Below, piece after piece: positions 8,541 through 63,680 of a DNA stretch of 64,000 nucleotides. Every line of letters begins with the position of its first letter. Position 1 is the first letter of the stretch. Made by a program: the position numbers and the translations under genes. A model generated the notes under the pieces. The model was given only the letters and a program-made list of their open reading frames with translations. It was not told the DNA's origin and searched no databases. The stretch is from Leptothermofonsia sichuanensis E412. GTDB lineage: Bacteria; Cyanobacteriota; Cyanobacteriia; Leptolyngbyales; Leptolyngbyaceae. The stretch covers positions 4,278,001 through 4,342,000 of the forward strand of contig NZ_CP072600.1 of the NCBI RefSeq assembly GCF_019891175.1, given 5' to 3'.

Positions 8541-8605
8541 CAGAGGCATCGCTCCGTGTTCTCTGTGCCTCTGTGGTGAAGGTTCTGGTTATAAAATCTT
8601 CATTC
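8541..8605. repeat. Palindromic repeat E
   Basis: CTCCGTGTTCTCTGTGCCTCTGTGGTGAAG followed by TTATAAAATCTTCATTCC just beyond the 3' end of the coiled-coil gene. The CACCACAGAGGCACAGAGAA core recurs at 10197, 17562, 26830, 28090, 37228, 44790 and 50293. Confidence 0.6.
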
Positions 8606-14796: not shown

Positions 14797-14830
14797 GTAA
14801 ATCAAAGGTTCTTAATTTCCGTTGAGGATA

Positions 14831-14922
14831 CACCCTTTTTCAAGGGTGTGAAGTACAGTGGGGTGCTCTGCACCCCACTGTACTTCACACTCCCGTACTT
14901 TACTCAATTGAAAAACGCTATA
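14831..14922. repeat. Palindromic element C with perfect hairpin
   Basis: Two perfectly complementary 21-base arms (14846-14866 and 14870-14890) flank a 3-base loop; the arm core is GAAGTACAGTGGGGTGC. Outside the hairpin lie CCCTTTTTCAAGG on the left and TTTACTCAATTGAAAAACGCTATA on the right. Just after it, GCTATAAATATAA is tandemly duplicated (14918-14942). Other copies: 43352, 47863 (inverted) and 54514. Confidence 0.85.
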
Positions 14923-15028
14923 AATATAACGCTATAAATATAAGGATTTGAGTCGGAGATCGTGATTCAGGACTCTCGTGGCATCTTACCTCACACCACC
15001 CCTCATGCTCCCATAGTGATTTGGGACA

Positions 15029-15105
15029 GTGTTGCTGAATAGCCCTATGAATTGAACCTTTCAATTCATACAACCTCTAAATTCATACCTGAAATCAGCA
15101 ACACC
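15029..15105. mobile_element. 77-bp MITE-like element D with 9-bp target duplication
   Basis: The element runs from GTGTTGCTGAATAG to GAAATCAGCAACACC (imperfect terminal inverted repeats) and contains internal ATGAATTGAA/TTCAATTCAT palindromes. It is flanked exactly by TTTGGGACA at 15020-15028 and 15106-15114, a 9-bp direct repeat. It is too short to code. GGTG.TGCTG ends and 8-9 bp duplications are hallmarks of the IS1 family, so it is probably a non-autonomous IS1-like derivative (inference). Confidence 0.85.
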
Positions 15106-15203
15106 TTTGGGACAGATGGAGACGGCCTCAGGTTGGGTGATTCCTCTGCTCTCCCATCCCCCTACCGTGCTAATCTTCATTTGCAAGCGATCGCCCCCCA
15201 CCC

Positions 15204-30665: not shown

Positions 30666-30701
30666 ACGGTTTACCCTGGCTTCCCGTTCATCCTTTATTC
30701 T

Positions 30702-30778
30702 GGCGTTGCTGATTCCGGATATGAATTGAGCCGTGTATGAGTTGAAGACCTTCAATTCATAGGGCTATTCAGCACCAT
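30702..30778. mobile_element. 77-bp element D with exact 9-bp target duplication
   Basis: Runs from GGCGTTGCTGATTCCG to GGGCTATTCAGCACCAT. The flanks CTTTATTCT at 30693-30701 and 30779-30787 are identical. Its length equals the copy at 15029. It separates thrC from the sulfur-carrier gene. Confidence 0.85.
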
Positions 30779-30815
30779 CTTTATTCTTCATCCTTCATCT
30801 TTCATCCTTCAAACT

Positions 30816-37339: not shown

Positions 37340-40300
37340 TTACCGCGATCGCCAGCTCCGATGCAGCGGAGGTAACAGGACGATCGAAGAAATTGTAAAC
37401 TGATCCATCAACCAGATGCCATTATCTCCCGTTTCATAATTGCGCCAGAGAATGTCGAGTTGCCCATTCCGGTTATAGTCAGCCAGACCTGCCACTCGCC
37501 AGCTTGGGAGAACTGTGGGCAGCATCCCAACTGAATTTAAGGAGATACCATTCATAAACCAGACGCCATTTTGTCCAGTGGCTGTGTTGCGCCAGAAGAT
37601 ATCTACGTTGCCATCACCATTAAAGTCGCCAACACCTTCAATTGCCCAGGCCAGAGGTACGGTCGGGGTCAGGACGGCGGTAGACGAGAGGGTGGTGCCA
37701 TTCAAAAACCAGAATCCGGTATCACCACTGACTGTATTGCGCCAGAGCAGATCCAGAAAACCATCCTGATTGAAGTCACCCACTCCATAGATCTGCCAGT
37801 CCTGAGGCACCGAAGGTGAAAGAACGACCACCGAACTGATGGACAGTCCGTTCATCAACCAGATGCCAGTCACTCCACCCGCTGCATTACGCCAGAGAAT
37901 ATCCACCTGGCCGTCTTGATTAAAGTCACCCGTTCCCCGAATTTCATAGTTCGGATCCTCCACCGATGGAATCAATGTAGCTGACTCAAACGTAACCCCG
38001 TTCATGAACCAGATGGCATTTTGCCCACTCATAGAGTTGCGCCAGAGAATGTCACTGAAGCCATCTCCATTGAAGTCGGAATTGACAGGGGGGGCTGTCA
38101 GGGTCGGATCAATCGTAATCGTAAAGATCTGAGCGAAGGAGGTATCCTGCCCGCCACTGGCCGTGCCACCACTATCTCGAACCCTGACTTCAAAGGTGGA
38201 CGTACCAGACGTGCCCGTTGCCGGGGTGTAGGTCAGGGTACCATTGGGGGCGATCGCGGGGCCACCGCCTGCTGCAAACAGTGCCGGGTTAGAAATATTA
38301 CTCACCAGGTAGGTTGCCGTCTGGTCAGATTCATTGGCTGCTCCCGGATTGAATGTTGCCCAGTTGGGGACGACTTGAACTCCCCGGTTGGGGGCAGGAG
38401 GAGGGTTGGTCGCTGTGAAACTGGGGCGATCGTTGACCGGATTAACCGTCAGGGTAATCGTTCGGGTTGCTGTTTGCGGCATCCCCCCCGTTGCCCCTCC
38501 ATCATTGGCAGTAATCGTCAGACTGTCGTTCCCAAAAAAGTTGGGGTTTCCCTGATAGGTCACAGCACTGGCACTGGTCAGGATCTGGTTAATCTGGGTC
38601 AGGGTACCGCTGAGGGTAACCACTGACGTGCCGTTGTTGGCAATATTGGTACTGGTCAACCCACCGGCAATGCCTGTGTTGACAGTGACCACGCCATTGG
38701 CAACTGTCAGTGTAACCGTAACGGTATTGCTTCCCGCATCAACATCTCCGACAAAGCCAATGGGAAACACGAGCGGTGTATCTTCATTCACGGTGCGGGC
38801 AGGCAGGGGGGCATTCGTTGCTATGGACACCGCATTGATCCTGACGATAGCTTCCGCCGTGGGGGTGTTGTCACCAAAGAAGACAAAATTCCTCAATTCA
38901 TAGGGATCGGGTAGGGTGACGCGGGTCTGGAAGGGACCCACTGTCAGGGTCGGTGGGATGAACGCCGTATAGTCTCGCAACTGACCACTCAGAATCGGGG
39001 TGTTGTTGCTAAACAGGGTGTATAGATCCCCCAGGACCAACAGGTCGTAATTGGTTAATACCGTTGTATTGACATTGACAACCTCTGCCTGGGTAAACAG
39101 GGTACGGAAGTTACTGGCAGGCGGGCTATCTGGTTCCAGAGCAGGATCTGCCTGTGTTGTGCCGTCATTCTGTGCCCAGATCCGGTCTTCCCAAAAGCCC
39201 AGTTCAATACCTTTCTGGTCGTTGCCAATCACAATCACACTAAAACCGGCACGATCCTCTTTGCCATCGTTATTTTTATTGGCAGACGTGAGGCGATTTT
39301 CATCAATCACCTGGGCACTAAAACTGAGGACGTAACCAGCTGTTCGATCCAGCGTCGGAAAGGTCGCTGCATTAATAGGTTCGGGGGTGAACGTAATCGT
39401 ATTTAAGCCTGTGTTTTGCGTGAATCGGTAATTGCTATACCCGGCATAAATTGGAAAACTGGTACTCAGGGTGGTGCCGCCTCCACCGGCAAACTGGGTC
39501 GCTGTACCTCCCAAAACGGCTGTATCCCGATAGGCGAACCAGGGTCCACCCGGAGCCGAACCAGCCGTGGTTGGTAACAGGTTTGTGGCACCGTTATACA
39601 GGGTGAGCCTGTTACCAATAAAGGGAGCGTCATTGACCCCTGTTACATTGACTGTTTTAGTGACAGGGGAACTGATTTCGCCAGTGCCGTCGTTCAGGAT
39701 GATGGCGATGGTGCGACTGCCACTGGCCGGTAAGGTATGGGAAACACTGTCATAGGTGAGGTTCCGCAGTAAGGCTTCAACTGCCGTGGGAGTGGCCGCA
39801 CTATTCAGGGAAATGACCAGACTCTCATGACTGATTCCCCCCATGAAAGTGCCAATCTGAATTCCGCCAAAGTTAATGATTCTGCCATCCAACCCGATCT
39901 GCCCGGCTCCATTGCCCTGATGCCGAATGGCAAGACGGTCTGAAGCCAGCCCTCCCTCGATAAAGTTAACGATCAGTGTGCCGTTATTGAAATTAGCCGG
40001 ATTGTCGGCATCGGTGACGGTAGCGTTGCTATCAAGCAAAACAGGAGGTGCATTTTCTGTATAGGCGATCGCGCCCCCTGGCAACGTAATCACGGGACTT
40101 GCCAGCACTGCCCCATACATGGACCGGGCAGCCGCACTTAAGACTAAGGAGGTCGCGATCGCTCCTGTTGCCACTTCCAATTCCCAGTTCCCGCCCATCT
40201 CCTGGTTGCCGGTCAGATCAATACTGGCCGCAATATCCGCCCCTGTCAGTTGGGCCAACTGCTGCACGAAGGTTAACCCCGCTTCTCCCAGGGCTACATT

Positions 40301-40756: not shown

Positions 40757-41088
40757 CCCCACATCATCCCTATTCCTGGTTCCTTTCTAGGTGTATTCCT
40801 CAGTTCAGTAAAAGAGAAGCCAGTTCAGGATGTCTTGTCCGTAAATTCACGGTAATTTCATAAATTAACTGAGTAGTGATCTGAACTCCAATCTTCACCG
40901 TAGTTTTTCAAATTCAGCCCTTTCCTCATGAAGACTTTACGGTTCGGTAATTTCGGAGGCTTTAGGCTAAATATATACAGATTTAGTAAATTTTGCTTCT
41001 ACTCCAGGTAATTCTTCTACTTTAGGTAATTCCAGGGGGCGGTCACGAATTTTTTGAAGGGTTGAAACTGCTTAAAAAGCAGCCTTGA

Positions 41089-41154
41089 AGCCTGTCTGAA
41101 AAGCCCCAACGGCCAAAACCCAACCCCAGACTGAGGAAATTTTCAGATAGCCTT
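41089..41154. mobile_element. Element A, diverged copy
   Basis: AGCCTGTCTGAAAAGCCCCA at one end and GAGGAAATTTTCAGATAGCC at the other; the interior ACCCCAGACTGAGGAA matches the other A copies, with orientation as at 50380. Two positions in each arm differ from the consensus AGCCTATCCGAAAA. Confidence 0.7.
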
Positions 41155-41370
41155 TTATAGGCTGTTAACAGGTGCGATCGCATCCATCCGACTCGTTGTT
41201 TTTTTTTAGAACGTTGAGGCTTCAAAGAGTCAGCGACTGAATCAGGTTTCCTTCAAGACCAGGCAGATGGGTCGGATAGTGTTGAGTTAACCCTGTGACA
41301 GGCAAGGTTAAATACCTTCATCCACAACCTGCACCGGTCTAACTTTGAATCATTCCCATCGCTTTACCGG

Positions 41371-41448
41371 GGTGGTGCCGAATAGCCGTATGAATTGAAC
41401 GTCTTTAATTCATACAATGCTCAATTCATATCCGAAATCAGCAACGCC
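41371..41448. mobile_element. Element D, copy with imperfect target duplication
   Basis: Runs GGTGGTGCCGAATAGCCG to GAAATCAGCAACGCC. Near-identical 9-mers CGCTTTACC (41360-41368) and CGCTGTACC (41450-41458) flank it with one mismatch and a 1-2 base offset, as expected from an older insertion. Confidence 0.75.
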
Positions 41449-43336: not shown

Positions 43337-43351
43337 GTGATGATGGCTACC

Positions 43352-43446
43352 GCTATAGTCCTTTTCAAGGGTGTGAAGTACAGTGGGGTGCTCAGCACCC
43401 CACTGTACTTCACACTCCCGTACTTTATTCAATTGAAAAACGCTAT
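43352..43446. repeat. Palindromic element C between convergent genes
   Basis: Two perfectly complementary 21-base arms (43371-43391 and 43395-43415; core GAAGTACAGTGGGGTGC) with loop TCA. Flanks GCTATAGTCCTTTTCAAGGG and TTCAATTGAAAAACGCTATA match the other C copies. Lying between invA (+) and iaaA (-), it could act as a bidirectional terminator. Confidence 0.85.
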
Positions 43447-44789: not shown

Positions 44790-44804
44790 CTACCACAGAG
44801 GCAC
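44790..44804. repeat. Left remnant of repeat E, interrupted by element D
   Basis: TACCACAGAGGCAC stops at the GGTATTGCTG end of an element D. The repeat resumes at 44885 as ACCACAGAGTCATAGAGAAC ACAGAG, restarting from its beginning, so 13 bases are present on both sides with two mismatches. Confidence 0.65.
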
Positions 44805-44884
44805 GGTATTGCTGAAAAGCGGGATGAATTGAAACGAAGTTTCAAGCATCCAGCACTTTTTTCATCCCCAGATTCAGCAATGCC
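44805..44884. mobile_element. Element D nested in repeat E
   Basis: 80 bp from GGTATTGCTGAAAAGCG to GATTCAGCAATGCC, inserted within an E repeat. The internal inverted blocks (GAAACGAAGTTTC) are conserved. It precedes trmJ and may affect its promoter region. Confidence 0.75.
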
Positions 44885-44945
44885 ACCACAGAGTCATAGA
44901 GAACACAGAGCCACACTTCACATCATAAAACTTAACAAATCCAAA

Positions 44946-47746: not shown

Positions 47747-47782
47747 CTTTTTATAGCCCTATAGTGTTCCTCAATTGAGTGG

Positions 47783-47862
47783 ATGGTGCTGAATAGCAGT
47801 ATGAATTAGAATGAAGTTTCAATTCATACAACGCTCAATTCATACCCGAAATCAACAATCCC
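47783..47862. mobile_element. Element D with near-exact target duplication
   Basis: From ATGGTGCTGAATAGCAG to CGAAATCAACAATCCC. Flanks are ATTGAGTGG (47774-47782) and ATTGAGTGA (47863-47871), identical over 8 of 9 bases. Confidence 0.8.
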
Positions 47863-47945
47863 ATTGAGTGAGATACGAGAGTGGGAGGTACAGTGACGGG
47901 GCGGAGTACCCCACTGTACCTCACGCCCTTGAAAAGGGCTATAGC
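47863..47945. repeat. Palindromic element C, inverted copy
   Basis: On the plus strand: ACGAGAGTGGGAGGTACAGT, then CGGAGTACCCCACTGTACCT, then CACGCCCTTGAAAAGGGCTAT. Arms are diverged relative to copies at 14846 and 43371, and the orientation is reversed. Confidence 0.75.
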
Positions 47946-47980
47946 CGTAAGGGTAGGACAAGTTAGCAACCACAAATAAA

Positions 47981-48045
47981 AGCCTATCCGAAAACTTCCT
48001 CAGTCTGGATTTGAACTTTGTCCATTGGGGCTTTTCGGATAGGCT
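47981..48045. mobile_element. 65-bp element A, intact copy
   Basis: AGCCTATCCGAAAA and TTTTCGGATAGGCT are perfect terminal inverted repeats of 14 bases around a 37-base core reading CTTCCTCAGTCTGGATTTG. Flanks TAAA and TTAAG give only an approximate A/T-rich duplication. Third in a row of three elements (D, C, A) downstream of the serine hydrolase gene. Confidence 0.8.
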
Positions 48046-48104
48046 TTAAGGGGAGATGGCAATTCGTGAGGGCTGGAATGGGTTTTCAGGGTGAATCACC
48101 ATTG

Positions 48105-50325: not shown

Positions 50326-50500
50326 CGAAAATAACCCGCCAGTTTTAGGTTGAACCACAAAGACACAAAGCGCATTAAGAGCCTATCCGAAAAGTCCCAA
50401 TGGACAAAGCTCAACTCCAGACTGAGGAAGTTTTCGGAGAGGCTTTAAGAAACGTTTTCTCCCTTCGTGCCTTTGTGGTGAAAACCTTCTGCCGCGATGC
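50326..50500 (+). repeat. Element B with an inserted element A
   Basis: B starts CGAAAATAACCCGCCAG, proceeds TTGAACCACAAAGACACAAA, and ends GTGGTGAAAACCTTCTGCCG. At the internal sequence GCGCATTAAGAAAC it is split by the 65-bp A at 50380-50444, with TTAAG on both sides, so A inserted with about a 5-bp duplication. The empty counterpart lies at 7046. Confidence 0.85.
50380..50444. mobile_element. 65-bp element A inserted in B, orientation 1
   Basis: AGCCTATCCGAAAAGTCCCA ... GAAGTTTTCGGAGAGGCT. Core reads CAATGGACAAAGC then CAGACTGAGG. Flanked by TTAAG at 50375-50379 and 50445-50449. Confidence 0.85.
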
Positions 50501-50959: not shown

Positions 50960-51049
50960 GGTGTTACTGAACAGTTGAGTGAATTATCGGATGAATTAAA
51001 AGTTTTCATTCATAAAATCTGATAATTCATACCCAGCATCAGCAATACC
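50960..51049. mobile_element. Element D, long copy
   Basis: 90 bp from GGTGTTACTGAACAG to CAGCATCAGCAATACC, with long internal palindromes (GAATTATCGG... GATAATTC). Flanks GAACTTAA (50952-50959) and GAACTTAG (51050-51057) match at 7 of 8 positions. Confidence 0.75.
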
Positions 51050-54513: not shown

Positions 54514-54609
54514 ATATAGCCCTTTTCGAGGGTGTAAGGTACAGTGAGGGAGCGGAGCACCCCACTGTGCCTCACATCCCCATACTTCATTCAATTGAGA
54601 AACGCTATA
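54514..54609. repeat. Palindromic element C, diverged copy
   Basis: ATATAGCCCTTTTCGAGGG, AGGTACAGTGAGGGAGCGGA, GCACCCCACTGTGCCTCAC and TTCAATTGAGAAACGCTATA. The arms have several mismatches compared with 14846. Located just downstream of the 3' end of the iron-uptake porin gene. Confidence 0.8.
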
Positions 54610-63509: not shown

Positions 63510-63680
63510 AAAAATAACCCGCCAGTTTTGGCTTCAACCAGAAAGACACAGGCACACTAAAAGCATATCCGAAAACTTCCTCAGTCTGGATTTGAACTTT
63601 GTCCATTGGAGCTTTTCGGATAGGCTTCAAGAACTTCCTGTCCCTTCGCGCCTTTGTGGTGAAAAACTTCTGTCGCAATG
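63510..63680 (+). repeat. Element B with inserted element A (opposite orientation)
   Basis: AAAATAACCCGCCAGTTTT, then AGAAAGACACAGGCACAC, the 65-bp A (63563-63627), then AAGAACTTCCTGTCCCTTCG and GTGGTGAAAAACTTCTGTCG. The insertion point is the same as in the copy at 50326, but A faces the other way. Lies downstream of the ABC binding-protein gene end (63710). Confidence 0.85.
63563..63627. mobile_element. 65-bp element A inserted in B, orientation 2
   Basis: AGCATATCCGAAAACTTCCT ... GGAGCTTTTCGGATAGGCT, core CAGTCTGGATTTGAAC then TGTCCATTGG; this is the reverse of the core at 50380. Flanks CTAAA and TCAAG are imperfect duplications. Confidence 0.8.

Follow-up and report, generated by a model that had tools for sequence, protein, structure and literature searches.

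A MITE family in Leptothermofonsia sichuanensis E412 with the ends of a cyanobacterial IS1 clade, now probably orphaned

What is the short repeat at 15028-15105 of the window (the whole stretch of 64,000 nucleotides of the Leptothermofonsia sichuanensis E412 genome analysed here), and which transposase, if any, has moved it? A preliminary description proposed an IS1-like MITE present in six or more copies, none coding for a protein. The element is a MITE: it is multi-copy and carries no gene, and it has inverted ends and target duplications. It was very probably made from the ends of an IS1 clade found in related cyanobacteria, mobilised in trans until recently, and is now probably orphaned.

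Searching the 64-kb window with a sequence model (R1) built from 33 copies recovered six full copies of 78-90 bp and one fragment, in agreement with the earlier count. The first, at 15028-15105 (forward strand, 78 bp, model match and alignment), begins with A, where most copies have G. The others, all model matches, lie at 30702-30779 (reverse strand, 78 bp), 41371-41448 (forward, 78 bp), 44805-44884 (forward, 80 bp), 47782-47862 (forward, 81 bp), and 50960-51049 (forward, 90 bp, divergent), and inspection of the flanks also bears on those at 30702, 44805, 47782, and 50960. The fragment, at 2321-2368 on the forward strand, covers model positions 2-52 (E 2.8e-6). Boundaries had previously been placed at 15029-15105 and 30702-30778, giving 77 bp; two of these four ends stand, but the first element begins one base earlier, at 15028, and the second ends one base later, at 30779, and this difference accounts for the earlier ambiguity between duplications of 8 and 9 bp. 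Throughout the 6.43-Mb single-contig genome, the model finds at least 151 matches, mostly 78-81 bp long, and a 26-base pattern of the ends occurs 210 times on the forward and 208 times on the reverse strand, against none for a reversed-pattern control.

Family members begin GG or RG, and alignment gives imperfect terminal inverted repeats of about 27 bp, approximately GGYGNTGCTGAWTNNNNRTATGAATTR; each end consists of about GGYGNTGCTGAWT, a few variable bases, and then TATGAATT. The core carries a third, inverted copy of the subterminal TATGAATTG, and a single strand therefore folds strongly, with z-scores of -6.3, -6.2, and -8.4 for three copies. Protein-coding capacity is absent from every copy, and all six full window copies are located between the main ORFs. 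Seven copies of a young 81-bp subfamily are identical, which shows that the MITE moved recently.

Insertion is recorded in the flanks. Exact, flush duplications of at least 8 bp border 29 of the 51 copies examined with flanks. When the flanks were permuted 500 times, such duplications numbered 0.036 on average and never more than one. They had been described as precise and 8-9 bp long; that is indeed the mode (8 bp in 14 copies, 9 bp in seven), but the range extends through 10 bp (one), 11 bp (two), 12 bp (one), 13 bp (two), and 14 bp (one) to 17 bp (one), and 8 of the 29 exact duplications exceed 9 bp. Copy 15028 is flanked by TTTGGGAC at 15020-15027 and, identically, at 15106-15113, the following base, A, also matching position 15028; copy 30702 is flanked exactly by TTTATTCT at 30694-30701 and 30780-30787. 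For three other copies, a match at 7-8 of 8-9 positions had been claimed: that at 47782 in fact has an exact duplication, ATTGAGTG, at 47774-47781 and 47863-47870; that at 50960 has one of 7 bp, GAACTTA, with a one-base slip; and that at 41371 is degenerate.

Copy 44805 lies within a dispersed repeat, seen at 8562, 10198, 17564, 26831, 28104, 37264, 44793, and 50299, whose core is CCACAGAGGCACAGAG or its complement and which also served as insertion target at two further genomic copies, L058 and L060. Because of this location, a 13-bp duplication can be recognised there despite three mismatches (10 of 13 positions agree between ACCACAGAGGCAC at 44792-44804 and ACCACAGAGTCAT at 44885-44897); uninterrupted relatives of the host repeat lie at about 50299 and 26831. 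A paralogous empty site is available for L060: GTGTTCTCTGTGCCTCTGTGGT, which corresponds to the sequence minus the element and minus one copy of its 17-bp duplication, runs uninterrupted at window position 8562. The upstream neighbourhood of site 15028 is not syntenic in the same-genus genome, which therefore offers no usable orthologous empty site there. Longer duplications have occasionally been reported for IS1 too, and in this MITE those exceeding 10 bp amount to a small peculiarity.

The assignment of the ends to IS1 had been argued from ten letters shared with Escherichia coli IS1 and from the length of the duplications. This argument is weak: over 27 bp, the E. coli IS1 end matches at only 12 and 9 positions. 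The assignment itself is borne out by a different route, through related cyanobacteria, in which the end pattern was found in 34 of the 58 genomes searched. In one of these, G024, two contigs are interrupted 127 bp into an element bearing a MITE-type end, and the reverse strand reads as the C terminus of an IS1 InsB by its likeness to E. coli InsB, an identification that was then tested. IS1 loci in relatives were then inspected at their ends. Locus L098, in genome G032, is 757 bp long, has AAATTCCA on either side, and contains an open transposase of 230 amino acids matching PF03400 at residues 98-215 (E 6.5e-26). Exact duplications of 8-10 bp are found at L098 and at eight further copies, L122, L123, L124, L130, L157, L158, L159, and L160. 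These eight include plasmid-borne copies, annotated 'IS1 family transposase', from Microcystis aeruginosa NIES-2481, Nostoc sp. C057, Calothrix sp. 336/3, and Cylindrospermopsis curvispora. Members of the clade are 754-757 bp long. An A7C run, the IS1-type frameshift site, is conserved in them, and in several genomes the protein matches fall in separate, overlapping pieces; InsA and InsB' are presumably joined by -1 frameshifting at this run. In L098, the A-run is longer and the frame is single and open.

The right end of this clade agrees with one MITE end at 20 and with the other at 21 of 27 positions, leaving 6-7 differences, and the left end at 19 and 17, respectively, whereas other elements tested reached 7-13 and 20,000 shuffles gave a mean of 7.8 and a maximum of 18. 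As in the MITE, the 27-bp ends of the 755-bp clade (e.g., on NIES-2481 plasmid p1, WP_103672714.1) include GGCGTTGCTGAAT and ATGAAT, and its target duplications of 8-10 bp are alike; the MITE differs in having no transposase gene. Both MITE ends resemble the right end of the parents (CTGAAT), the left end of most of which reads GCATAAT. The MITE core was not recognised in the parent interior when the two were compared by eye.

Several other candidates for a full-length element were set aside. An end pair 1,759 bp apart surrounds a seryl-tRNA-synthetase-like ORF and contains no transposase. Seemingly unpaired ends in genomes G040 and G014 (L073-L086) proved to belong to longer MITEs (139-247 bp) that share these IS1-type ends and of which several have duplicated flanks. 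The MITE had no match in the plasmid collection, and a literature search with its end sequences returned unrelated matches only.

A full-length IS1-family element with the same ends is thus present in relatives, and the host itself retains relics only. A search with the parent protein found no intact transposase of this clade in the genome, the best match being a different, 858-bp IS1 at 36% identity. One relic, starting at genome position 4571445, comprises the right end and the InsB C terminus (AVRLLLHYLKFSDVPVP), with 77-84 bp at 77-80% identity; the other, running leftward from 4219158, comprises the left end and the InsA N terminus, with 135-163 bp at about 69-72%. As these two relics remain, the parent was once resident in this genome, and as no intact copy remains, the family is probably orphaned now. 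The same-genus genome (G001) contains the MITE (26 of its 29 hits) along with a decayed parent copy.

From these comparisons, the MITE is composed of two inverted ends of about 27 bp, both closer to the right than to the left end of the parent, around a short core whose inverted TATGAATTG permits hairpin formation. The InsAB' protein of the parent clade, acting in trans, would bind and cut these ends and insert the MITE at staggered target cuts, mostly of 8-9 bp and sometimes of up to 17 bp. Mobilisation in trans by this enzyme is the most likely mode on the sequence evidence, with the MITE now probably lacking an enzyme and its activity lost. Four points stand against this explanation: the genome showed no intact parent transposase, and the enzyme behind the young copies thus escapes view; the MITE ends still depart from the parent ends at 6-7 of 27 positions; comparison by eye revealed no counterpart of the MITE core in a parent interior; and 8 of the 29 exact duplications are longer than 9 bp, while parent copies show 8-10 bp.

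The first of these points gives some purchase to the idea that the resident 858-bp IS1, rather than a lost parent clade, mobilises the MITE, since young copies require a recent enzyme and this IS1 has about 33 copies in the genome without stops in the catalytic domain. Like the parent clade, it encodes an IS1 family transposase (PF03400) and makes duplications of 8-9 bp. Its ends, GGTAATGTTCTAGG and GGTCGTGTTCTAGA, are unrelated to those of the MITE, however, with just 8-13 matches in 27 positions, close to what shuffled sequence gives, and its transposase is only 36% identical to that of the parent clade; we therefore regard the idea as improbable. It was rejected as the MITE's parent on account of these ends, as was an 854-bp IS1-type element present in two copies, with the ends CGGTAGTCCTTTTT. 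Slightly less probable again is that the MITE is still active, moved by the 858-bp IS1 despite barely similar ends. Were that so, IS1 would recognise ends far less strictly than is believed, perhaps with the help of the MITE hairpin, and duplications of up to 17 bp would reflect this loose recognition.

Derivation from an element of the IS903 group (IS5 family) is very unlikely. Ends of this group, GGCTTTGTTGAATAA, resemble those of the MITE and its duplications are of 9 bp, and the genome contains a decayed IS903-type element plus two fragments, with the ends GGCGTTGTTGCAT and GGCTTTGTTGCAT. Agreement of these with the MITE is limited to 11-12 of 27 positions, and the subterminal TATGAATT is absent from them, whereas the ends of the IS1 clade match at 20-21 with TATGAATT included, and an IS903-type origin was rejected because the ends are not shared. 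A 206-bp repeat of the host genome, 91% identical between L071:1494-1699 (near 5473582) and L072:1521-1726 (near 4204649), has a MITE-like right end directly abutting an IS903-type transposase remnant, at the same point in both cases; the remnant ends in ATGCAACAAAGCC. The repeat is possibly chimeric, or one element nested in another. Retention of the repeats as regulatory hairpins (REP-like or terminator-like) rather than as transposons, to which the folding z-scores of about -6 to -8 and the intergenic position of all window copies might point, is scarcely credible given that 29 of 51 copies have clean target duplications, which show transpositional insertion, and given that selection against gene disruption would equally be expected to leave copies between genes.

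The IS1-derived MITE favoured here may be set beside Nezha of Anabaena and the MITEs of Anabaena sp. 90, which by their descriptions are likewise short, non-coding elements with inverted ends and many intergenic copies. The latter were termed type II, since their ends were not found in any IS of the genome concerned (PMC3542288). The same parentless situation arises in L. sichuanensis, but here it is resolved through relatives and relics, making a clean case in which a MITE family whose own genome lacks an intact parent is traced to its source through relatives; seemingly parentless MITEs thus require no mechanism of their own. The presence of the pattern in 34 of 58 related genomes means that such ends are common, and mostly unlabelled, in cyanobacterial intergenic DNA, and should be useful for annotation. 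Understanding of transposition is unchanged, and the family illustrates, clearly but unremarkably, a known kind of parasitic DNA. The preliminary description was largely right in both observation and interpretation, with corrections to the boundaries, to the range of duplications, and to the parent, which is not the abundant IS1 of this genome.

Other repeats share the window. At 41083-41158, 47976-48051, 50376-50449, and 63557-63632 lie copies, 81-96% alike, of a second MITE-like family, about 74 bp long and with the inverted ends AAAGCCTATCCGAAAA...TTTTCGGATAGGCTTT; the flanks inspected show no evident target duplication. A third repeat, containing a long near-perfect palindrome (GTGTGAAGTACAGTGGGGTGC...GCACCCCACTGTACTTCACAC), occurs at 14819-14905, 43348-43430, 47876-47953, and 54515-54600, two of its copies lying within about 130 bp of the MITE copies at 15028 and 47782. 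Finally, five direct repeats with a spacing of about 150 bp extend over 37384-38078 inside a reverse-strand ORF of 1140 amino acids, which on this account encodes a repeat-domain protein.
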